21,666 bases of DNA. Source: a virus. Below are positions 8,583 to 19,044 of the stretch, one piece after another. Position 1 is the first letter of the stretch; every line of letters begins with the position of its first letter. The stretch covers positions 1 through 21,666 of the IMG/VR virus record IMGVR_UViG_3300030106_001165; one strand, 5' to 3'. Made by a program: the position numbers and the translations under genes. A model generated the notes under the pieces. That model worked only from the letters and a program-made list of their open reading frames with translations, was not told where the DNA came from and did no database searches.

Positions 8583-9502
8583 TACAAACCGTACCCAAAT
8601 CCTTGTCTACCACCAGAGTCATAAGAGAATCCACCAGTTGGTCCTCCTGAATCTTGAACTCCTGGTCCATCACCACCCGTTCCTGGTCTTCTACCTCTTC
8701 TTTGTGATTCAAGTTCTGCTGCTTGTTTAGCTCTTGCATCTGCTAAAGCTTTTGCTTCTCTATCCTTTAATGCTTGTAAATCTTTTAATCTTTTTTCAAG
8801 AACGGCTGATTTTTTTTTCTTTAATGTTTTTTTAATTGTTTCCATTCTTTTATCAATAGCTCCAGTTAATCCATAAGTGGTTTCATCACCCATCTTACCT
8901 CCTGTTAATGCATTTAATAAACCACCTGACACAATGTTGTATTGATCCATTCCTGGTATTTGAGACATCAACCCTCTAGTGCTTGGATCTGAATAAAAAT
9001 CTTCTAGAGCACCTTGTCTATAATCTCTTTCAGGTAATAAATTACCTAATATACCAATCCCAGGTAAACCTGTCAGTAAAGAGGCTATGCCACCAATAGC
9101 AGTTTTTCCTAAATTAATGCCTTTACTAATACCAGACTTTGTTTTATCTAAAAAACTTCTAGTGTCTATCCCTTGTAAATTTGGAGGTATTGAAAAATTT
9201 TTTTCAGCTAAAAATTTAGCAGTTGCTTCTGGAGTGCCTAAATTAAATGCTCTATAATTAAAGTTTCTATCTAAAAAACCTTTTGTTGGATTATTCTGTC
9301 TTAAAAAAATATTATTTACAGGAGCATCGATAAAATCAATTGCAGGTGTTCCCATGCCTGGTACAAGTTCATCACCACTTGAGAAGTCTATTCTATCAGG
9401 CACATCTACAGGTGGAAACATTTCTAAACTTTGTAAACGATTGGGCATGTAATCAGGATTCATTATTAAATCTTGATATATATTTGAATTAGTTATCGCC
9501 AT
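8582..9502 (-). CDS. structural hypothetical protein with Lys-rich coiled coil and Gly-rich tail
   Basis: 306 aa. The first third (MAITNSNIYQDLIMNPDYMP) is mixed and acidic. Residues ~125-160 form a Gly/Ile/Leu-rich hydrophobic stretch that could cross or insert in a membrane. Residues ~215-270 are a highly charged lysine/alanine helix (METIKKTLKKKK, LEKRLKDLQALKDREAKALA). The C-terminus is Gly/Arg-rich and ends GGRQGFGYGL. Amphipathic plus basic helical parts fit an internal or ejection protein, but no family was recognised. It starts one base inside the stop of the tail closure gene (TAATG). Confidence 0.75.
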   Translation of the reverse strand: MAITNSNIYQDLIMNPDYMPNRLQSLEMFPPVDVPDRIDFSSGDELVPGMGTPAIDFIDAPVNNIFLRQNNPTKGFLDRNFNYRAFNLGTPEATAKFLAEKNFSIPPNLQGIDTRSFLDKTKSGISKGINLGKTAIGGIASLLTGLPGIGILGNLLPERDYRQGALEDFYSDPSTRGLMSQIPGMDQYNIVSGGLLNALTGGKMGDETTYGLTGAIDKRMETIKKTLKKKKSAVLEKRLKDLQALKDREAKALADARAKQAAELESQRRGRRPGTGGDGPGVQDSGGPTGGFSYDSGGRQGFGYGL

Positions 9503-11706
9503 TATCGTCTTCCGTCTGGTTGCGTGTCTAATCTAAAAGTACCCAACTTCCAGCTTTGACTCGTTGAGGTGTTTTCTATTTTTAATGCAATGGCTCTTGC
9601 TCTTGCACGAGTATCCACTTTACTAGTAGATGAGGTAATTGTAAAGGGTCCTAGTGACGAGCTTGATGCTGTATTATTTGGAAAATTACGTAAGTTTAAA
9701 GTAACTCTAGTATCTCCAGTTTGAGATATAAAATCTGGAACAAATCTTCTAATTTTCATAAGATGCTCACCATCTCCTTTAAAATCAGCTATGCCTGTCA
9801 TTTTATTACCCACTATTCTTTGAGTTATATCAAAGTCTCCTGATAATATGTTTGCTGTTATAGCTGTAATAGTACCATTTCTATTTTGATCTGTTCCTGT
9901 TTCGTGTTCATAGTAACTTGTTCTACCTTCTGTGTTTCCAACCACATCAAAAGATGTATCTGTATCTGCATCATACTCTAAAGCATGAGGTTTGCCAAAA
10001 ACAGCAGAGTCTCTCCACATCGTTCTGGCTAAACTACCAACTGTCCACACCGGTCTTTGTGGTGATGAATCAAAGTAATTATAACAAACCATTCTATTTA
10101 CAACACTAGATCCTGTCTCTGGATAAAACCACATTACTTCACCAAACAAATTATTTAAACCTGCTGACACCATTTGATTACCAGATGCTAAATTTATACT
10201 ATCAAAAACAAAATCTTCTACTAAACAAGGTAATGATTCTAATTTACCTGCATATCTAAAAAAACCATTTTCTGACATCCAATATGCAGAGCCATCAACC
10301 TCAACACATGCATTCTGTCCAACAAGTCCACAGTTAGTTCCAACTTGTGCAAATGCAAATGTAAATGGTTGTCCAACAAAACGTTGTGTGAATAACGCTG
10401 TATCAGTCCAAACATAGATTGCATCACGACCTCTAATTGCTCCCCTGATCTGTGATCCGTCAGCCAGTCTTTGTGTACCAGCTGTATTGGTTGCCGTAGG
10501 TGTATAGGTGTTTATATCTTCTTGATCCGAGAATCTTACAAACATATCATCTTGAGTTGTTGGATCACCAATAGTTGTTTCTGTTCCAAAAAATACTAAG
10601 TGTCTATCAGGTGTGGATACCAACATATGTCTTGATGCTGTAGGTGCTCCAGTTATAATTGTTGCCCTTGTATCAGTTGCATTAGATAAACTAGAGTCCC
10701 AAGAAAAAACAGCACCATCGTGAATTAAACAAATTGCTTTATCACCAAAATTATCTAGTGACCACATTCCTGGTTCAAGAACTAAGTCTCCTGATGCAGC
10801 TTCTCCCCAAGCAACAAAGTCAGATGTGTTCGTAACAGTTGCTCCATTACTATGAGCTGCTTTTGATGTTCCTCTGACTCCTCTTGTAATGCCAGTTAAG
10901 TCATTACCAGAAACACCCGTGTATGATATTTCCTCTGTTCCTACTTTGATAAAATTGGTACCTGAAGATGGAAAGTTAGTTGTACTTGTTAACGTAATAG
11001 AAGTCCCTGATCCTCCAGTTCCAGCAGTGTCATTCAATAAAGCACCATTTAACGTTGTGGTGATGGCACCTGCTGCTTCACCACCCCAAGATCCTAGTCC
11101 CCAACCAAATCCTTTTGCTTGAACAGCTGGGCCTACAGTGTAATATTTTTTTATTCTAATACCGCCTGATGTTGTTGCACCAGATCCACTTTCATTTGAA
11201 GGCATTGTTATTGTTGCCGTTAGATTGGTTGGTGTGCTTGCAACCATAAATTTTTTATTATCAAAATCTGATGCACCAAAATTTGAGTTTGTAATAGCTG
11301 TAAAATTATCCATTAAAAGTATATCACCTGGTGTTAATCCATGTGCACTAGAGTAAGTTATAGTTACAGTTGGTGATCCGTTAGACGTGCTAAAAGCACT
11401 TGTAAGCGTTGTTGTAGATTGAATAGGGTGTATATCATAAAATACACCTCCTGAATAAGCATATAATATTCTATTAGTTCCTATAATAGCATATTTTCTA
11501 CCTAAACTATTAACAAAATGATGCAGTCCTCTTCCTGCACCTGTAAGTTCATTTTCATTTAAAGTTCCTAATTGATTCCAACCCCCTATTTTTTCAGGCG
11601 TGTTATATCTAAATCTAACATTATCACAGTCAACCCACTGACCTTCTGCTCCTGTGGGTGTAACTTGTTTATTAATACCTGGTTGGAATCCTATTTTCTG
11701 TAGCAT
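9502..11706 (-). CDS. tail closure/nozzle-type protein (P22 gp10 / T7 gp12-like)
   Basis: 734 aa. The N-terminus (LQKIGFQPGINKQVTPTGAE, followed by DNVRFRYNTPEKIGGW at 28-43) is the signature of a family of podovirus tail proteins usually annotated as stabilisation or tail nozzle proteins. The following residues (LHHFVNSLGRKYAIIGTNRI) begin a beta-propeller-like region. An inserted module at ~115-180 carries HGLTPGD, and residues ~235-293 carry a second module (IKVGTEEISYTGV, RGVRGTSKAAHSNG) common in phage tail proteins. The protein would close the portal channel below the adaptors. Context agrees: adaptor-like genes upstream, ejection-type genes downstream. The start is preceded by a GGGG-rich weak Shine-Dalgarno. 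Family is moderately certain, exact role less so. Confidence 0.78.
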   Translation of the reverse strand: MLQKIGFQPGINKQVTPTGAEGQWVDCDNVRFRYNTPEKIGGWNQLGTLNENELTGAGRGLHHFVNSLGRKYAIIGTNRILYAYSGGVFYDIHPIQSTTTLTSAFSTSNGSPTVTITYSSAHGLTPGDILLMDNFTAITNSNFGASDFDNKKFMVASTPTNLTATITMPSNESGSGATTSGGIRIKKYYTVGPAVQAKGFGWGLGSWGGEAAGAITTTLNGALLNDTAGTGGSGTSITLTSTTNFPSSGTNFIKVGTEEISYTGVSGNDLTGITRGVRGTSKAAHSNGATVTNTSDFVAWGEAASGDLVLEPGMWSLDNFGDKAICLIHDGAVFSWDSSLSNATDTRATIITGAPTASRHMLVSTPDRHLVFFGTETTIGDPTTQDDMFVRFSDQEDINTYTPTATNTAGTQRLADGSQIRGAIRGRDAIYVWTDTALFTQRFVGQPFTFAFAQVGTNCGLVGQNACVEVDGSAYWMSENGFFRYAGKLESLPCLVEDFVFDSINLASGNQMVSAGLNNLFGEVMWFYPETGSSVVNRMVCYNYFDSSPQRPVWTVGSLARTMWRDSAVFGKPHALEYDADTDTSFDVVGNTEGRTSYYEHETGTDQNRNGTITAITANILSGDFDITQRIVGNKMTGIADFKGDGEHLMKIRRFVPDFISQTGDTRVTLNLRNFPNNTASSSSLGPFTITSSTSKVDTRARARAIALKIENTSTSQSWKLGTFRLDTQPDGRR

Positions 11707-11728: not shown

Positions 11729-12061
11729 TTAGTTTTTTGGTAGTATTATATTCCAATCTAGACTAGATATCAATTCATTCAAGTGAACCTTTTTAAGCTT
11801 ATTTTGTTTTAAATATTGATGTAGTTCTTCTAAATCTACAATGATCCATTGATCCTTAATATCAAAAACCATTTTTTCTGCTCTGCTTGTTGTCTTTCCA
11901 TTTTGAGCCATGATACCACTAGATAATTTAAACATATCTCTAACATCAAATTTATAAAATCCATTAGTGCCTTTAATTATTCCAGCCACATTCCATGAAG
12001 TTTTTTCTTTAGGATACTCTACAGCCTCTAGTTGTTTAGAAAATCGTTGCACTATATCCAT
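11729..12061 (-). CDS. conserved marine-phage hypothetical protein, 110 aa
   Basis: The 110-aa product (MDIVQRFSKQLEAVEYPKEK, SSGIMAQNGKTTSRAEKMVF, ending SLDWNIILPKN) is mixed alpha/beta with Lys and Trp residues, no signal peptide and no cysteines. It resembles small conserved proteins I recall from pelagiphage-like genomes, but has no known function. It is the first minus-strand gene after the oppositely oriented oxygenase cassette, so its transcript must come either from a promoter in the 38-bp divergent gap or by read-through antisense to the cassette. The minus strand has TATAAA (12078-12083) as a possible -10 but only a poor -35. No clear Shine-Dalgarno is visible. Confidence 0.72.
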   Translation of the reverse strand: MDIVQRFSKQLEAVEYPKEKTSWNVAGIIKGTNGFYKFDVRDMFKLSSGIMAQNGKTTSRAEKMVFDIKDQWIIVDLEELHQYLKQNKLKKVHLNELISSLDWNIILPKN

Positions 12062-12091: not shown

Positions 12092-12108
12092 ACTTTCTAA
12101 TGAAAGTA
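12091..12108. repeat. perfect 7-bp inverted repeat over the cassette start codon
   Basis: TACTTTC (12091-12097) and GAAAGTA (12102-12108) are exact reverse complements separated by TAAT. The dyad overlaps the predicted -10 end, the transcription start and the ATG at 12100-12102. It could be an operator for a repressor or a small hairpin affecting initiation. AT-rich dyads of this size can occur by chance, so the role is uncertain. Confidence 0.4.
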
Positions 12109-12606
12109 TATAGAAATATGTTACCTACTAAAGAATTTAAGGATTTAACAAATCATCTTATTAATGCTAATTTCCCTTGGTATTATAATAAAGGTGTGGT
12201 CTACGAACACGAAGATGGCACTCCCGAAGATAAAAAAAATTTTCAATTTACCCATACTTTTTATATGAATGATAGAGTAAATTCTGATCAATTTAAAATA
12301 TTAATACCATTAATTAAAATTATTAATCCACTAACTGTTGTTAGAATAAAAGCTAATTTATTAACTAGAACATCTAAAATTATAGAACATGGTTATCACA
12401 CTGACTATGATGAAAATAGTCATAAACTTACCACTGGTATATTTTATTTAAACACTAATAATGGATACACTAAATTTAAAAATAAAAAGATTGTTAAAAG
12501 TGAAGCAAATAAATATATAGAATTTAAAGGTGAAGAAAGTCACACAGGTTCTACTTGCACTGATAAAAATATAAGGGTAGTTATAAATTTTAACTATATT
12601 AAATAA
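12100..12606 (+). CDS. 2-oxoglutarate/Fe(II)-dependent oxygenase, cassette gene 1
   Basis: 168 aa. A short N-terminal part (MKVYRNMLPTKEFKDL, NFPWYYN at 24-30) resembles phage oxygenase-like proteins of marine viruses. The double-stranded beta-helix signature is complete: H100-x-D102 in EHGYHTDYD, the strand TTGIFYLNTNNGYTKF, the distal H148 in ESHTGS, and R159 in IRVVINF as the likely 2-oxoglutarate anchor. It would use O2 and 2-oxoglutarate to oxidise an unknown substrate in the cytoplasm. ATG at 12100 is chosen because it gives the family-like N-terminus; ATG at 12118 is an alternative. No Shine-Dalgarno is visible. The stop overlaps the next start (TAATG). Confidence 0.8.
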   Translation: MKVYRNMLPTKEFKDLTNHLINANFPWYYNKGVVYEHEDGTPEDKKNFQFTHTFYMNDRVNSDQFKILIPLIKIINPLTVVRIKANLLTRTSKIIEHGYHTDYDENSHKLTTGIFYLNTNNGYTKFKNKKIVKSEANKYIEFKGEESHTGSTCTDKNIRVVINFNYIK

Positions 12607-13247
12607 TGGTATTAGAAAATTATTACTATTGGTTTAAGGAAGTTTTAACTCCAAAATTCTGTGATGATGTAATTAAGTATGGTAATTCTAAAAATAAAAA
12701 AACAGCTTTAGTAGGTGGTTTTGAAAGAGACATTGAAAAAAATCCTCTTACTAAAAAAGAATTAAAAAATTTACAAAAGATTAGAAAATCAGAAGTTATT
12801 TGGATGAATGATGCTTGGATATATAGAGAGATTATGCCATACGTAAGAAAAGCTAATCAAATGGCTGGATGGAATTTTCAATTTGATATGTCAGAATCTT
12901 GTCAATTTACAAACTATGGTCCAGGTCAATTTTATGGCTGGCATTGTGATTCAAATCCTCATCCTTATAAAAGAGATGATGAGAATAACCCTGAAAATGG
13001 TAAGATTAGAAAATTGTCTGTTACTTGTTCTTTAACAGATCCTAGTAAATATAAAGGTGGAGAGTTAGAGTTTAATTTTAATATACCTGATAAGCGTAAA
13101 AAAGATAATATAAAAAAATGTATTGAAATTTTACCTAGAGGATCTATCGTTGTTTTTCCTTCTTTTGTTTGGCATAGAGTTTGTCCTGTTACAAAAGGAA
13201 CTAGAAACTCTTTAGTAATTTGGAATTTAGGATGGCCATTTAAATGA
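12606..13247 (+). CDS. prolyl-4-hydroxylase-like (PKHD type) 2OG-Fe(II) oxygenase, cassette gene 2
   Basis: 213 aa. The catalytic core is clear: YGPGQFYGWHCDSNP gives H113-x-D115; KLSVTCSLTDPSKYKGGELEF is the typical following strand pair; PRGSIVVFPSFVWHRVCPVT gives the distal H190; and R200 (GTRNSLVIWNLG) is the 2-oxoglutarate-binding arginine. This arrangement matches PKHD/P4Hc hydroxylases (the PiuC/YbiX group and phage homologues). The reaction is oxidation coupled to decarboxylation of 2-oxoglutarate; the substrate is unknown, with protein side chains possible. It starts within the stop of gene 1 and its stop overlaps gene 3 by 4 bases (ATGA), so translation is probably coupled. This is the most confident assignment in the cassette. 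Confidence 0.88.
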   Translation: MVLENYYYWFKEVLTPKFCDDVIKYGNSKNKKTALVGGFERDIEKNPLTKKELKNLQKIRKSEVIWMNDAWIYREIMPYVRKANQMAGWNFQFDMSESCQFTNYGPGQFYGWHCDSNPHPYKRDDENNPENGKIRKLSVTCSLTDPSKYKGGELEFNFNIPDKRKKDNIKKCIEILPRGSIVVFPSFVWHRVCPVTKGTRNSLVIWNLGWPFK

Positions 13248-13900
13248 GTTTAAATTATACAGGATATTTTATAACACCTATCTATGAACAAAAAATAGAT
13301 AAATGGATTAAACCTTTAAACAAAGCTTGTGATAAACATATTAAAGAAGCTAGAAAAAAAGATATACCATTTATAAAAAAAAGAAACAAAGATTTTGAAA
13401 AAAATTTAAAAGACTTCGGTCTTTCTGCTCACTCTGGTTCTTTGTCTGGTTTACCTGAATTTAAAGAGATAGAGGAATATGTAATTAAATGCTCTGATAA
13501 AATATTAGATCAAATGGGTTATAATACTCAAGGTTATAAAATGTTTATGACAGAAATGTGGGTTCAAGAATTTTCTAAAAATGGAGCAGGTCATCATGAG
13601 GCACACATACATTATGATAATCACATATCAGGTTTTTATTTTTTAAAAGGATCAAATAAAACTTCTTACCCTGTATTTAAAGATCCAAGACTAGCAAAGA
13701 TAATGAGTTCTTTACCTGAAAAAAATCCTTGGGATACTACGTTTGCTTCACATGCAATTAAATATCATCCAGAACCTGGAACTTTAATTTTGTTTCCATC
13801 TTTTTTAGAACATGGATTTCCAATAGATCATGGGATAGAACCTTTTAGATTTATGCATTTTAATTTACAAGCAGTAAGGAGAACAATAATTAACAAATGA
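13244..13900 (+). CDS. putative 2OG-Fe(II) oxygenase of the HxH/SGxYYL type, cassette gene 3
   Basis: 218 aa. The core HHEAHIHYDNHISGFYFLKG (about 117-136) and PGTLILFPSFLEHGFPI (178-194) match the family of putative 2OG-Fe(II) oxygenases described by TIGR02466/Pfam 2OG-FeII_Oxy_5, in which an H-x-H-rich segment precedes SG-hydrophobic-YYL. Visible candidate ligands are H121/H123, D125, and the distal H190; R202 (EPFRFMHFNL) could bind 2-oxoglutarate. The lysine-rich N-terminal ~60 residues are helical and without recognised domain. It is linked by ATGA overlaps on both sides. Fold assignment is fairly sure; activity is inferred. Confidence 0.78.
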   Translation: MSLNYTGYFITPIYEQKIDKWIKPLNKACDKHIKEARKKDIPFIKKRNKDFEKNLKDFGLSAHSGSLSGLPEFKEIEEYVIKCSDKILDQMGYNTQGYKMFMTEMWVQEFSKNGAGHHEAHIHYDNHISGFYFLKGSNKTSYPVFKDPRLAKIMSSLPEKNPWDTTFASHAIKYHPEPGTLILFPSFLEHGFPIDHGIEPFRFMHFNLQAVRRTIINK

Positions 13901-14517
13901 GTTTTAAAAAAAATAAATATCAAGTAATTAGAAAAGCTTTATCGCCTGAAATGACTTATTTTTGTTCAAGGTATTTTACTTTTAAAAGACAAGTCGCAAC
14001 CACTTTATTTGATCACAGATACATTTCCCCATTTGAAACAATGTTTGGATCTTGGAATGATGATCAAATTCCAAACACTTATTCTCATTATGCTGATTTA
14101 GTTATGGAAGTTTTATTAGCTGAATTACTTCCTTTGATGATGAAAAAAACAAACCTTAAACTTACACCTAATTATTCTTATGCAAGAATATATAAAAAAG
14201 GTGATGAACTTAAAAGACATAAAGATAGATTTAGTTGTGAAATATCTACAACTTTAAATTTAGGTGGTGATCCATGGCCCATATTTCTTGAGCCATCTGG
14301 AAAAAAAGGAATGAAAGGTGTTAAGATAAATTTAAAACCTGGAGATATGTTAGTTTATAGAGGTTGTGATTTAGAACATTGGCGAGAACCTTTTGAAGGG
14401 GACAGCTGCACTCAAGTATTTCTACATTATAACAATTTAAAAACAAAAGGGTCAGAAGAAAATTTATTTGATAAAAGACCTCATTTAGGATTACCTTCTT
14501 ATTTTAAGAAAAAATAA
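13897..14517 (+). CDS. 2OG-Fe(II) oxygenase-like protein with HKD motif, cassette gene 4
   Basis: 206 aa. YARIYKKGDELKRHKDRFSC carries H108-x-D110, STTLNLGGDPWPIFLEP is the next strand pair, and LKPGDMLVYRGCDLEHWREP carries the distal H161. The usual arginine about ten residues after that histidine is absent: the segment reads GDSCTQVFLHY, with Gln173 there. The same EHWRE...QVFLHY ending occurs, from memory, in other marine phage oxygenase-like proteins, so another residue may bind the cosubstrate. The N-terminal ~90 residues are mostly helical. It overlaps gene 3 by ATGA and gene 5 by TAATG. Fold likely; cosubstrate use less certain. Confidence 0.75.
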   Translation: MSFKKNKYQVIRKALSPEMTYFCSRYFTFKRQVATTLFDHRYISPFETMFGSWNDDQIPNTYSHYADLVMEVLLAELLPLMMKKTNLKLTPNYSYARIYKKGDELKRHKDRFSCEISTTLNLGGDPWPIFLEPSGKKGMKGVKINLKPGDMLVYRGCDLEHWREPFEGDSCTQVFLHYNNLKTKGSEENLFDKRPHLGLPSYFKKK

Positions 14518-15101
14518 TGTTGATTAATGAACTTTTCCCTACAGTTATAGGTTTTAGTGAAAATAAAAAACATAATAATTTACTCACAAGACATTTATAT
14601 AAAATACAAAAACAAATAAATAGTGGAGGTCAAAATTGGGGTTCTACTGTGTACAATACAGATGGAACTTACAATCTTCATAAAGATTTAAAATTTAATA
14701 AATTAAATGATTGGATATTTTCTGAAGTTAATAATTACAAAGATATAATTGGCTATAAAGATTTTAATATGTCTTGTTCTAGAAGTTGGTTTAATATCTA
14801 TAAAAAATATGATTATCAAGAAAAACATAATCATGTAGGCACTGATACTATATCAGCAGTTTATTTTTACAAAGTTGTTAAAGACAATAGTAATTTAATT
14901 TTTCATTCTCACGAACCTGAAAGTGTTCAACAAACTTTTAACAAAAAAAATAAATATACTTGGAGAAGTTTTATAGTTGAACCAAAAGAAGGACTATTAG
15001 TTATGTTTAAATCTCATGTAATACACAATGTTTTACAAAAAAATAATAATGAAAAAAGAATATCTTTTGCTTATAATTTTAAATTAAATTATTCTGGTTG
15101 A
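14517..15101 (+). CDS. putative 2OG-Fe(II) oxygenase of the HxH type, cassette gene 5
   Basis: 194 aa. The start MLINELFPTVIGFSEN resembles the opening of TIGR02466-type proteins (LFPTPV...). The core is SWFNIYKKYDYQEKHNHVGT (H104-x-H106), then ISAVYFYKVV, and KEGLLVMFKSHVIHNVLQ (distal H170) with R181 in EKRISFAYNF. It belongs to the same broad subfamily as gene 3 but is very different in sequence, so the two are not recent duplicates. The last 13 bases overlap the 3' end of the convergent minus-strand gene, leaving no room for an ordinary terminator downstream of the stop. The substrate is unknown. Confidence 0.78.
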   Translation: MLINELFPTVIGFSENKKHNNLLTRHLYKIQKQINSGGQNWGSTVYNTDGTYNLHKDLKFNKLNDWIFSEVNNYKDIIGYKDFNMSCSRSWFNIYKKYDYQEKHNHVGTDTISAVYFYKVVKDNSNLIFHSHEPESVQQTFNKKNKYTWRSFIVEPKEGLLVMFKSHVIHNVLQKNNNEKRISFAYNFKLNYSG

Positions 15102-15487
15102 TTAGGTACTAGTACCCAACCAGCAGTATTATCTGCTTGATAAGCATCTTCATCCCAACGATATATTTTATCTTCACTTGGCTGGGATATAGGTGGTACT
15201 AAATCACCATTTGTATCGTAAGTCCATGAAGCACCCGGTTTAGGTGTTAAAAACCTATCATTAGTTTCATCATAAATAAAACCTGGTCCTGCATACATTT
15301 TTCTAAAATTATTATTGTAAGAAGTTTGCATCCACTTAACACCATCTGCAGATAAAGGCACAACTGTTTCAAAATGAGTTGCAGCTTGTGTTGACTGTTC
15401 TCCACCATTGTTTGCAATATCTGTATTGCAACCAACTACTACTCTTAGAACTTTATTATCTTTATCTAATTCTGCAAAATGAGCCAT
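15089..15487 (-). CDS. conserved marine-phage protein (MAHFAELD... type), unknown role
   Basis: 132 aa beginning MAHFAELDKDNKVLRVVVGC and containing VKWMQTSYNNNFRKMYAGPG, FIYDE and a C-terminal IYRWDEDAYQADNTAGWVLV. This is a recognisable protein type widespread in cyanophages and pelagiphages near tail genes, normally annotated only as hypothetical. The repeated aromatic/acidic pattern (WxYDxNGDLVPP, YRWDED) suggests small beta-hairpin units; it may be a minor virion or tail-fibre assembly protein. It starts one base inside the stop of the glycine-rich gene. Its 3' end overlaps oxygenase gene 5 tail to tail, and a long hairpin lies within its last codons. Confidence 0.8.
   Translation of the reverse strand: MAHFAELDKDNKVLRVVVGCNTDIANNGGEQSTQAATHFETVVPLSADGVKWMQTSYNNNFRKMYAGPGFIYDETNDRFLTPKPGASWTYDTNGDLVPPISQPSEDKIYRWDEDAYQADNTAGWVLVPNQPE
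15094..15123. terminator. long hairpin at the convergent junction (possible terminator)
   Basis: CTGGTTG (15094-15100) pairs with CAACCAG (15117-15123), and inside it GGTAC (15105-15109) pairs with GTACC (15112-15116) around a TA loop; ATTA (15101-15104) forms a four-base bulge. That gives 12 base pairs in AT-rich surroundings. In the minus-strand transcript it is followed by an A/U-rich run (15077-15093), not a pure U tract, so it is an imperfect intrinsic terminator. In the plus direction no U tract follows. It lies in the coding end of the 15089-15487 gene, so a processing or protective role is also possible. Confidence 0.45.
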
Positions 15488-16413
15488 TATGCTACCACTA
15501 AATTTCCACTAGTTACAAACCTAGCTACCTTTCCTCCACCTTCTGGCGAGGGTACTGTTACTAAAGAATTACTTGGAGGTGTTACAGAGAATAAAGGTGC
15601 ATTACATGCACATACTCTTATCTCTACTCTACCAGATCCGCCTCCACCACTTGCTGGAGAAGGAAAGCCGCCGCCTCCGCCTCCGCCGCCAGTATTTGCC
15701 GACCCAGCTCCGCCGTTTCCAGATCCTCCGCCGCCGGAACCACCTGAACCAGATCTTGATTGAAATCCTCTACTATCATTTCCAGATCCTCCTCCGCCAC
15801 CATAGGTCGCTGAAGATCCTGTAATATTTATTGCTACTCCTGCACCACCATTTCCACCGACTGGATTTGGATTGCCTCCTGGTTTTCCTGCTTCACCAGC
15901 TCCGCCACCGCCAGATGATCCTGCATTTCCGCCACCTTGTCCAGTTCCTCCAGGATTTCCTTGTGGGGGACTTGTTGGAGGTGTATTACCAGTTCCTCCT
16001 GGAACTCCACACCAACCTACAGTACCTGAACCAGAACCTCCCGGTCTTAAAGGTGCTGGATTACCTGTTCCTCCACCAGTTGAAGAAATAGCATCTACTC
16101 CTTCTGTGCCAGGGGCATTAAAAGATGAAGTTCCACCTCTTTCAGCTGTAGGGGATGGTACTGGATATGCAGTGGGCGCACCACCTGCACCTACTACTAC
16201 TGCATAAGTTGTGCCAGGTTGTATAGTTAATTGTGTACCGCTGTTTAATGGGCTAGGTCCATAAGCTGAAAATCTCATACCTCCAGCTCCTCCGCCACCG
16301 CCGTTTGGTGCATCTCCGCTTCCACCTCCAGCGAGAACTAAATAATCTACGCCAAAGCCACCAGCTGTAGTGTTTGATCCAAAACCTAATATATTATAAC
16401 CGAAACTTGACAT
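15487..16413 (-). CDS. glycine-rich tail adhesin-like protein
   Basis: 308 aa, dominated by glycine with Ser, Asn and Pro. The opening VDYLVLAGGGSGDAPNGGGG matches the start of glycine-rich domains seen in phage tail fibres and adhesins, and the Gly runs recall polyglycine-sandwich adhesins such as phage S16 gp38 (structural analogy only). The C-terminal ~45 residues (GRVEIRVCACNAPLF, then ARFVTSGNLVVA) are non-repetitive and could be the attachment or folding end. An AGGAGG Shine-Dalgarno overlaps the stop of the tail fibre gene upstream. Local GC is far above the rest of the window because of glycine and proline codons. Probable role: host recognition at the tail tip or fibre. Confidence 0.75.
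   Translation of the reverse strand: MSSFGYNILGFGSNTTAGGFGVDYLVLAGGGSGDAPNGGGGGAGGMRFSAYGPSPLNSGTQLTIQPGTTYAVVVGAGGAPTAYPVPSPTAERGGTSSFNAPGTEGVDAISSTGGGTGNPAPLRPGGSGSGTVGWCGVPGGTGNTPPTSPPQGNPGGTGQGGGNAGSSGGGGAGEAGKPGGNPNPVGGNGGAGVAINITGSSATYGGGGGSGNDSRGFQSRSGSGGSGGGGSGNGGAGSANTGGGGGGGGFPSPASGGGGSGRVEIRVCACNAPLFSVTPPSNSLVTVPSPEGGGKVARFVTSGNLVVA
15667..15690. repeat. GC-rich glycine-codon trinucleotide tract
   Basis: The 24 bases are eight consecutive CCN-type triplets on the plus strand, reading as eight GGC/GGA glycine codons on the coding strand. It is the purest stretch of a longer GC-rich region (about 15640-15930) in otherwise AT-rich DNA. Such tracts can change length by slippage or recombination in steps of one codon. 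Confidence 0.55.
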
Positions 16414-16425
16414 TTATCCTGCCTC

Positions 16426-17850
16426 CTATGCGTCGTTAGCAGCGTCAGTAGTAAAGAATAATTTAACCCCTAATAATTTTGCATCAGCTGTTAAATCATC
16501 TGCTGAAACGTCTCTAGATATTTGAAAAAAAACGTATTCATCTGTACTTGGTGAACCAGCTATAGTCACTGCTCCACTTTCTGCTGTTACTGCTAAATCA
16601 TTTGCTGTACCACTCATAGCTTTTGCAGTAGGTGCAACTGCAGTACCAAAAGCGGTATTTAAATCTCCGTTATCTGCTAATGCAACACCTTGCAAAGCCC
16701 ATGATGTTGTTCCTGTGTTTGTAGTATTTGCTGTAAAGAAAGCTTGAAATGTTACTGTGCCTTCGTTCCATGATTTAGGAAATGCTACAGCAAACTGTGC
16801 AAACTCATCTGAATCTTTGTCAAAATCTAAAGTTTTAATCTCAGGACCATTTGATAATTCTACTTGGTTTGGACCCTCTGCTCCATTTGTAGTATTAGGA
16901 TACATAGCAACTGCAGGAACCCAAATAGTTTCTTTACCTGCAACTTTAATCGCAGATCCACCAACTTGAGCAACACCAGTTCCATTAGGTGCAATGTTAA
17001 TATTACCATCTGCTGCATCTGTAATTGTAATAGTTCCAGAATCTGTTCCAGAGTTTGTGCTTAAAACTAAGTCTGCTGCACCACCAGTTGTAATTGTAAG
17101 TGCACCTGCACCATTTGAAGTTAAAGTAGCAGCTGCTCCAGAGTCTCCAACTTTTACTGTATCTCCAGCAAGAACAACGTCTCCAGTTCCTTTTGGAGTA
17201 ATATTAATGTCTATGTTTGAGTCACCACCTGTAGATGAAAGAGTTGGTCCTGCACCTGTTGCTGCATTTGCTATTGTAAATTCGTTTACCGCAGAACTTG
17301 TGGCCGTTAATAAAGCTAACTCATTTCCGTTAGTATCTAAAATAGATGTTCCTATTTTAGGTGATGTTAAAGTTTTATTTGTTAAAGTTTGTGTTCCAGT
17401 TAATGTAACATCTCCAGCTGGTAAAGTATCAATGTCTGGATTAGTTCCATCATTTGCAGTAGCAAATACAAGAGCATCACCTTTATCACCTGCTGCAAAA
17501 GTAAAACTATCTCCAGAACCTGAAGCATATTTAAACTGTACTGTGTATGCACCTGATGTTGAATTTCTTAAAAAATAAAAAGTTTGAACGTCTAAAGGTA
17601 TTGTTACAATCTGGTTACCTGTAATTGTACCTGTAAACTCAATCATTCTATGAGAAAGAGTAGCACCAGTTGATCCATCAGAAACAGATAAAGCAGTTGT
17701 TTGTGCACCACCAGCTATGCTTTGTGTTGTATAACCACCTGAAATTTGCTCTATAATTTGTAAATTAGTATTAGTTTTTGTCCCCCATGTACCAGCGTTT
17801 TCACCAGTTGCCTGAAGTTCTACTCCTAAAGGTGTATATGTTGATGCCAT
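16426..17850 (-). CDS. tail fibre protein
   Basis: 474 aa. The N-terminus MASTYTPLGVELQATGENAG and then WGTKTNTNLQIIEQISGGY is a frequent start of marine phage tail fibres (virion attachment part). Residues ~150-165 contain TGTQTLTNKTLTSPKI, a classic fibre motif. Residues ~205-295 carry Gly/Thr-rich beta repeats with two copies of an INI-x-P-x-GTG-x-V unit (213-224 and 283-293). The C-terminal ~165 residues from ETIWVPAVAMYPNTTNG form a separate beta-sandwich-like domain that could bind a glycan. It starts after an AGGAGA Shine-Dalgarno overlapping the upstream stop. The product should assemble as a trimeric fibre for host recognition. Confidence 0.82.
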   Translation of the reverse strand: MASTYTPLGVELQATGENAGTWGTKTNTNLQIIEQISGGYTTQSIAGGAQTTALSVSDGSTGATLSHRMIEFTGTITGNQIVTIPLDVQTFYFLRNSTSGAYTVQFKYASGSGDSFTFAAGDKGDALVFATANDGTNPDIDTLPAGDVTLTGTQTLTNKTLTSPKIGTSILDTNGNELALLTATSSAVNEFTIANAATGAGPTLSSTGGDSNIDINITPKGTGDVVLAGDTVKVGDSGAAATLTSNGAGALTITTGGAADLVLSTNSGTDSGTITITDAADGNINIAPNGTGVAQVGGSAIKVAGKETIWVPAVAMYPNTTNGAEGPNQVELSNGPEIKTLDFDKDSDEFAQFAVAFPKSWNEGTVTFQAFFTANTTNTGTTSWALQGVALADNGDLNTAFGTAVAPTAKAMSGTANDLAVTAESGAVTIAGSPSTDEYVFFQISRDVSADDLTADAKLLGVKLFFTTDAANDA

Positions 17851-17862
17851 AATTTTTATCTC

Positions 17863-19044
17863 CTATGCAGCGTCACTATAACTTGTATTTGATCCAGTTG
17901 CAACATTTGTATACGACGAATTTGAACCTGTGTCAACTGATTGATATGCTTGAATTCCAAAGCCTGTAGCAGTTCCAAATGCAGCTATTGAAGAAGTCAT
18001 TCCTTGACCAGTTAAACCTACAACGTCAGCAGGTGTTATCGCACCAACTGAAGACGTCGCACTAAGACCAGTTATACCTACAACGTCAGCAGGTGATATA
18101 GATCCCACCGAAGAAGTTGCAGAAATCCCTGTTGGTAATGCGGTAAAATCACCAACGATCGAAGAATCACCAACAGATACTGTTGCAGAAACTCCTGTTA
18201 CACCAATTACATCTGCAGGAGTTAAAGCTCCCACAGAAGAATTTATAGTTGAAGTAGATAAACCTACTGACATCTCAGTAGGTGATATTGTTCCTACACT
18301 TGTCGTTGAAGAAACTCCAGTTACTGAAACGGTTGGACTATTTATTAAAGTAGGTGTTCCTAAACTTGTTGTTGCAGAAACTCCTGTTACACCAACTACA
18401 TCTGCAGGAGTTAAAGCTCCTACACTTGCAGTGGCTTGTTGTCCTGCTAATAATATATCACCTTGAATGCCCCACGCATCATCATTCCAAGCTGCTCTAC
18501 CCCATCCAGCACCTATTTCTGCATCTACAGTAACCGATCCAATAGATGAAGTTGAACCAACACCTGTTGGAGTAACTGTTTCATCACCCATGTTTCCCCA
18601 TGAGCCAGAAGAATTCCAACTTTTTGCACCATAACCTGTTGTAAAAGCTTCACTTATACCCCAAAGATTAGCACTCCAATTACCTGCGCCCCAAAAATCT
18701 GCATCAGGAGTATTTGCTTGTCCACCCATACCAGAGTGTTGTGTACAATAATAATAAAGAGTTGGTGCGCCTGAAGCTACTTGAATTTGAGTGTAGGCTC
18801 CAGATGACCCTGGAGTTCCGTTTGTTGTTACATTAGTTGTATATTCATCACCACCACCATGTGTTCCATCGCTTGTTGTTGAAAGTCTTAAAGGGTGACC
18901 ACCGTTTGAACTATCAGATTGATCAAATCTAAAAGTAGCGCCTTCAACTAATTCTAAAGTAGGTTGTAAAGCTCCATCAATATAATATTTATTACCAGAA
19001 CCAGTGTATACCACCGTGACTGTGAATGTTCTGTCAACGGACAT
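17863..19044 (-). CDS. virion protein with cupredoxin-like domain and SVG...PADVVGVTG repeats
   Basis: 393 aa. Residues 5-108 look like a cupredoxin fold: beta strands, then GGHPLRLS (H50) and YYYCTQHSGMGG (C100, H103, M106), together the ligand set of a type 1 copper site. Residues ~115-200 are Trp/Gly-rich (DFWGAGNWSANLWG, GWGRAAWNDDAWG), a pattern seen in marine phage structural proteins. Residues ~210-365 are seven degenerate repeats of 20-22 aa based on SVGALTPADVVGVTGVSATT, and the tail ends TGSNSSYTNVATGSNTSYSD. No signal peptide is present, as expected for a virion protein. Location between a small virion protein and the tail fibre suggests a fibre or tail appendage. The copper binding is inferred from residues only. 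Confidence 0.78.
   Translation of the reverse strand: MSVDRTFTVTVVYTGSGNKYYIDGALQPTLELVEGATFRFDQSDSSNGGHPLRLSTTSDGTHGGGDEYTTNVTTNGTPGSSGAYTQIQVASGAPTLYYYCTQHSGMGGQANTPDADFWGAGNWSANLWGISEAFTTGYGAKSWNSSGSWGNMGDETVTPTGVGSTSSIGSVTVDAEIGAGWGRAAWNDDAWGIQGDILLAGQQATASVGALTPADVVGVTGVSATTSLGTPTLINSPTVSVTGVSSTTSVGTISPTEMSVGLSTSTINSSVGALTPADVIGVTGVSATVSVGDSSIVGDFTALPTGISATSSVGSISPADVVGITGLSATSSVGAITPADVVGLTGQGMTSSIAAFGTATGFGIQAYQSVDTGSNSSYTNVATGSNTSYSDAA
17975..18437. repeat. intragenic degenerate tandem repeats (60-66 bp unit)
   Basis: Seven units code for the 20-22 aa repeats of the cupredoxin-domain protein. Most have diverged, but 18181-18231 and 18370-18420 are 51-bp copies that differ at a single base, pointing to recent duplication or gene conversion. 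Boundaries are approximate. Confidence 0.65.

Follow-up and report, generated by a model that had tools for sequence, protein, structure and literature searches.

Viruses are known to encode protein hydroxylases, as exemplified by the prolyl 4-hydroxylase of PBCV-1. In the giant mimivirus, the L230 protein is a collagen lysyl hydroxylase (PMC5802723). Among marine phages, Wittmers et al. (2022; PMC9599517) describe eight non-orthologous families of 2-oxoglutarate (2OG) oxygenases in HTVC023P-type pelagiphages, in many cases accompanied by a 'ferrochelatase' gene or a pair of them. Here we describe a cassette of five overlapping genes, g1 to g5, at positions 12100-15101 of a 21,666-nucleotide stretch (the window) that covers nearly the whole of the 22,342-base IMG/VR virus record IMGVR_UViG_3300030106_001165. 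All five encode enzymes of the 2OG-Fe(II) oxygenase type, in four families, and the cassette is swapped, as a single block, together with two neighbouring tail genes, p132 and gly308.

Five oxygenases of four families

The five open reading frames (ORFs) lie on the + strand between long virion genes of the - strand, and neighbours overlap by 1-4 nt. From this layout, they are predicted to be translationally coupled and to form a single operon, reversed relative to the virion genes. A sigma-70 promoter scan gave matches only at the level of shuffled sequence, and a terminator scan gave slightly more than that level; both were uninformative.

Pfam searches assigned g2 (12606-13247; 213 amino acids), which is PiuC/PKHD-like, to PF13640 (1.2e-16), and both g3 (13244-13900; 218 amino acids) and g5 (14517-15101; 194 amino acids), the second of its subfamily, to PF13759 (6e-14 and 7e-17, respectively). 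For g1 (12100-12606; 168 amino acids) and g4 (13897-14517; 206 amino acids), nothing above any Pfam cut-off and no significant match in PDB sequence-profile searches was found. In PHROGs, the products belong to four families: phrog_274 (g1), phrog_61 (g2), phrog_81 (g3 and g5), and phrog_2954 (g4). Similarly, profile comparison with hhalign found g3 and g5 clearly related (97%) and the remaining pairs weak. Because only these two are clearly related, at least four families are present; tandem duplication as the origin of g1-g5 was ruled out, as g3 and g5 make up the one shared subfamily.

For g1 and g4, alignments comprised 46 and 45 relatives, and AlphaFold2 models reached predicted local distance difference test (pLDDT) values of 94.4 and 93.3, respectively. 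In Foldseek comparisons with the PDB, g1 matched mostly PHD/P4H prolyl hydroxylases (best E 6.4e-7, TMq up to 0.68), and g4 matched the Dictyostelium PHD (7.2e-8) and the Pseudomonas putida P4H (7.7e-8), then EctD, EvdO1, and other 2OG enzymes. By their best matches, both folds resemble the PHD/P4H protein prolyl hydroxylases. The double-stranded beta-helix fold is thus present in all five products, by Pfam for g2, g3, and g5 and by AlphaFold2 and Foldseek for g1 and g4.

The iron ligands form an H-x-D...H triad in g1 (H100/D102/H148), g2 (H113/D115/H190), and g4 (H108/D110/H161), and an H-x-H...H triad in g3 (H121/H123/H190) and g5 (H104/H106/H170); the H-x-H of g3 aligned with the same motif in the solved PF13759 members 3bvc and 2rg4. 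Triad positions are 97-100% conserved across 29-251 relatives per family; the ligands are essentially invariant, and the enzymes are therefore under selection. The distal 2OG-binding arginine is conserved in g1 (R159), g2 (R200), g3 (R202), and g5 (R181), and the canonical Arg is absent from g4. An initial annotation of the window had read from the sequence five consecutive oxygenase-type genes of at least four subfamilies, with this arginine in four of them; the ORFs, Pfam, the models with Foldseek, and the conserved triads bear this out, and profile and structure searches placed all five products in the 2OG-oxygenase fold.

Two of these families carry other labels in PHROGs, 'DNA endonuclease V' for phrog_274 (g1) and 'ferrochelatase' for phrog_2954 (g4). 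No ferrochelatase match for g4 and no nuclease match for g1 was found in Pfam at E<=1; instead, g4 has the triad motif with a 2OG-oxygenase fold, and g1 the triad motif with a prolyl-hydroxylase-like fold, and both the ferrochelatase and the DNA endonuclease V (DenV) assignments were rejected. Judged by the models, the two widely propagated labels are probably wrong, and the haem/iron partnership drawn from the 'ferrochelatase' label is therefore undercut. Endonuclease or ferrochelatase labels stand on phrog_274, phrog_2297, phrog_2954, and phrog_3531, all of which look like 2OG oxygenases (phrog_274 and phrog_2954 by fold), and such labels have been propagated into many cyanophage RefSeq records.

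A tail-slot cassette exchanged with fibre genes

The best DNA matches to the window were Pelagibacter phages HTVC023P and HTVC033P and the genome 023Pt_psg01. The phage is an HTVC023P-type pelagiphage, and its host group is SAR11, an abundant ocean bacterium; this host is supported because contigs from Pelagibacteraceae genome records (L397, L398) carry g4 homologues together with the same tail module. Some 370 related loci were fetched, in which the families were mapped by hidden Markov models; these loci are biased toward relatives of the query genes, and permutations do not remove this bias.

Two - strand genes adjoin the cassette. The first, p132 (15089-15487), encodes a small tail-associated protein (phrog_7759) with conserved Pro/Trp positions, and is convergent with g5, with a 13-nt overlap. 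The second, gly308 (15487-16413), encodes a glycine-rich fibre-like protein (PF21722; 31.5% Gly, 28 Pro). Between the window and one related locus, L088, nucleotide identity is 76-97% (mostly >85%) over 12,151-16,350, a segment that holds g1-g5, p132, and gly308, and 40-70% on either side, with the tail-module protein p734 (9502-11706, - strand) only 41% identical. Identity falls off close to where g1 and gly308 start, and the exchanged unit is therefore g1-g5 with p132 and gly308. A chimeric assembly is argued against because L089, from another sample, has the same left junction as L088.

The divergence of the oxygenases tracks p132 and not p734. In Mantel tests of pairwise divergence (500 permutations against p132), r with p132 was 0.44 for g2, 0.54 for g3, and 0.47 for g4 (p=0.002 each), and r with p734 lay between -0.10 and 0.07 (g4, -0.06); for the tail proteins p734 and p145 it was 0.78. 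A distance-control subset comprised 33 loci in which g4 lies no more than 300 nt from p734 but 600 nt or more from p132; here the correlation of g4 was r=0.72 (p=0.0005) with p132 and r=0.05 with p734. Physical distance alone does not explain the tracking of p132 by g4, although exchange of the whole block between the anchors could contribute. A contingency of p132 against strong g4 matches (13/14 vs. 0/6; Fisher p=1.8e-4) is exploratory, with a 200-bit cut-off picked post hoc and few independent lineages.

The cassette occupies a fixed slot, with p734 at one edge and another tail-module protein, p474 (16426-17850, - strand), at the other. Of the loci that were retrieved with p234, an unrelated tail gene, and that extend from p474 to p734, 21/21 hold at least one oxygenase of these families in the slot (g2 in 20, g4 in 19); the cassette is collinear with the virion genes in 19 and inverted in two. 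Oxygenases occupy the same slot in the isolates HTVC023P and HTVC027P and in the genome 023Pt_psg01. The order g2-g3-g4, collinear with the virion genes, is found in HTVC023P, HTVC033P, and 023Pt_psg01 (a g1 counterpart is present in at least the last), and HTVC027P has a reversed three-gene cassette that includes one annotated 2OG oxygenase. The tail genes of HTVC033P have no match to p734 or p234, and this phage carries gly308-p132-gly308-g2-g3-g4. The common core is g2-(g3)-g4 plus shuffling extras; g5 has only three close relatives, and many unassigned or weakly assigned ORFs of the slot are further 2OG proteins. Related genomes therefore hold a conserved group of genuine oxygenases in one slot, rather than the random single genes that would have refuted the initial annotation; a fixed five-gene order is not supported.

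That annotation had also stressed the orientation against the virion genes, which holds for this phage and is not the rule: the 151 loci placed on a p734 tree include 32 with an inverted cassette, and the tree requires at least 14 orientation changes. Inversion as a defining feature was ruled out, most relatives being collinear. The segment occurs in both orientations among relatives, as in a switch of the Mu G-segment type. An invertible element within this genome is not supported, as the inverted repeats in the window are weak and short and no strong ones flank the cassette. In two loci (L156, 2633-6107; L157, 1619-6971), two copies of p132, in opposite orientations, enclose g2-g3-g4 together with another ORF encoded on the opposite strand; gly308 is also inversely duplicated in L157, and the longer arms of the two loci are 72-96% complementary. 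Such a layout resembles an intermediate of inversion or a set-up for alternate fibres, and, from the sequences, homologous recombination between inverse duplicates of p132 and gly308 could plausibly bring about inversion. A cassette of mixed orientation was seen in L305 (5292-7507), with a g5-like gene on the - strand, then g1, g2-like, and g3-like genes on the + strand. In close relatives (p234 92-94% identical), inverted five-gene cassettes of very divergent oxygenase-family genes were observed (L303, 4212-6939; L314, 3879-6541); there, other small tail proteins stand in place of gly308 and p132.

Other enzymes share the slot in relatives: tryptophan halogenases (L351, 8622-10100; L356, 7029-8444; L105, 6857-8011; L278, 5510-6718; L172, 5340-6443), carbamoyltransferases (L172, 9869-11503; L302, 7815-9389; L338, 7105-8445; L280, 7602-9077; L362, 7642-9228), and occasional sulfotransferases. 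In the surveyed loci, 54/55 halogenase or carbamoyltransferase ORFs have an oxygenase no more than 2.5 kb away, an enrichment partly built into the fetching of the loci; among p234-fetched loci, 6/20 have one of the two.

On the far side of g1, a divergent gene, hypo110 (11729-12061, - strand; 110 amino acids), begins after a gap of 38 nt. It adjoins p734 in many inverted and some collinear loci, and is a possible regulator or chaperone of the cassette. A 393-amino-acid tail protein (17863-19044) starts with a stretch shared with marine tail-fibre PHROGs, which on visual inspection resembles a cupredoxin; degenerate V-G repeats come after it.

Possible role of the cassette

The swapping of the operon together with a tail-fibre gene suggests that its enzymes chemically decorate the host-contacting fibre. 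On balance, it is probable that g1-g5 are tailoring enzymes of an exchangeable tail-fibre module, which modify the module's own fibre proteins post-translationally. The five genes would be co-transcribed as part of the module and, late in infection, their products would oxidise side chains, by hydroxylation or otherwise, in gly308 and/or p132, the candidate substrates, before or during tail assembly, so that an altered surface may be presented to the SAR11 host, with a possible effect on adsorption. In relatives, the halogenases and carbamoyltransferases of the slot would add other groups, the carbamoyl possibly onto the new hydroxyls. Virion tail-protein modification, as raised by the initial annotation, thus gains from the fixed slot, the block exchange, and the co-variation with p132; a strictly stepwise pathway is unsupported. 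A more general combinatorial scheme can be put forward tentatively and with some doubt: that swappable hydroxylase/halogenase/carbamoyltransferase cassettes of marine phages, moved with the target fibre gene, diversify tail-tip chemistry beyond the amino-acid sequence.

Data from other marine phages bear on this role. In S-RSM4, HTVC008M (where they are inverted), and Mosig, genes of these oxygenase families are grouped next to tail or neck genes; p132 homologues adjoin 2OG genes in S-SSM5, P-RSM4, S-CAM8, S-MS29, S-SM1, S-RSM4, HTVC008M, and DSL-LC04, and a carbamoyltransferase adjoins 2OG-g4-p132 in several cyanophages. However, several points weigh against fibre tailoring. The usual 2OG-binding Arg is missing from g4, and a prolyl-hydroxylase-like fold leaves the substrate open, with small-molecule hydroxylases such as EctD among the matches of g4. 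Some cyanophage homologues lie away from tail genes, for example a g1-type gene in P-SSM2, and p132 homologues without nearby 2OG genes occur in Bellamy, Greip, HTVC025P, CRP-143, and CRP-207; p132 as an obligatory partner of the oxygenases was ruled out by these five phages. In addition, the co-inheritance could be passive, through hitch-hiking between the conserved anchors p474 and p734.

Among the alternatives, synthesis or alteration of a small molecule or of host surface glycans, for instance to block superinfection, survives best, and we regard it as unlikely. The halogenases, carbamoyltransferases, and occasional sulfotransferases of the slot are natural-product tailoring types too, and EctD, EvdO1, and HygX are among the fold matches of g4; against this, no scaffold-making genes (polyketide synthase, nonribosomal peptide synthetase, or ribosomally synthesized and post-translationally modified peptide genes) were recognised in the slot, and the co-inheritance is with structural fibre genes. 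It is just as doubtful, if not slightly more so, that the cassette reprograms host metabolism, with 2-oxoglutarate use or succinate production changing how the infected cell senses nitrogen or is supplied with energy. Such a role was proposed for T4-like cyanophages (PMC3037559) and repeated for S-SCSM1 (PMC9602691), and many marine phages carry several 2OG genes. However, one uncoupled enzyme would be enough to drain 2-oxoglutarate, and the proposal leaves unexplained the gathering of four divergent families, the tail slot, and co-variation with p132 rather than p734.

That the cassette is passive cargo, gathered with other moron genes in a slot that acts as a recombination hotspot and tied to p132 and gly308 only physically, we hold to be improbable. 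The high turnover, the orientation changes, and the conservation of p474 and p734 on both sides fit such a hotspot, but g4 tracks the distant p132 and not the adjacent p734, slot content is overwhelmingly of one chemistry class, and the iron ligands are essentially invariant. Least probable, and indeed very unlikely, is an AlkB/TET-like modification or repair of DNA or nucleosides: a repair role was proposed for Syn9 2OG genes near uvsX/uvsY (PMC2984593), g1 bears its endonuclease label, and g4 has a weak PDB sequence match to a Tet-like dioxygenase (E=0.49), but the genes lie in a tail module and not near replication genes, the top structural matches are protein hydroxylases rather than AlkB/TET, and PMC2984593 notes that the cyanophage genomes it covers lack a true denV. 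Neither the 2OG/nitrogen-status nor the DNA-repair proposal predicts co-inheritance with p132.

Of the marine-phage genes that lack an explanation, the 2OG oxygenases rank with the most abundant, and as a rule they are classed as host-directed metabolic genes. If phages modify their own tail fibres with them, a large class of 'auxiliary metabolic genes' would be reassigned, enzymatic oxidation of phage receptor-binding proteins would become a directly testable idea, and host recognition would gain a non-sequence layer in a phage-host pair that ranks among the most abundant in the ocean.

Comparison with known systems

The system of Wittmers et al. (PMC9599517) belongs to the same phage group and very probably comprises the same genes. 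As far as its available passages go, that paper takes ferrochelatase at face value, with a haem/iron link, and calls the 2OG genes non-adjacent, whereas here g4 has an oxygenase fold and the genes overlap; those passages mention no tail slot, orientation, or link to p132. The clustering of 2OG and 'ferrochelatase' genes is thus already published, and the fold correction, the tail-slot rule, the co-inheritance with p132, and the orientation switching are new relative to those passages and the literature surveyed. No proposal of tail-fibre modification, label correction, or description of the tail slot was found in the literature searched, a scope that left out most subscription journals and bioRxiv preprints.

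The 2OG clusters of T4-like cyanophages and pelagimyophages (S-RSM4, S-SM1, S-SSM5, HTVC008M, and Mosig) contain the same families, often beside tail fibre or baseplate genes and p132, and that of HTVC008M is likewise inverted relative to the flanking virion genes. They differ from the phage studied here in that these phages are contractile-tailed, their virion cores are unrelated, and the gene order is different.

The nearest solved folds for g1 and g4 are the HIF prolyl hydroxylase PHD2 and the P. putida P4H, an EF-Tu hydroxylase, with which they have the H-x-D...H triad in common; they differ in sequence (8-17% identity), in the shorter length of g1 relative to those domains, and in the arginine that g4 lacks. 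The mimivirus L230 and PBCV-1 hydroxylases are also virus-encoded 2OG oxygenases and act on Gly/Pro-rich proteins. However, each is a single enzyme with a characterised substrate in a giant virus of eukaryotes, whereas the present locus has five predicted enzymes of four families within a phage tail module.

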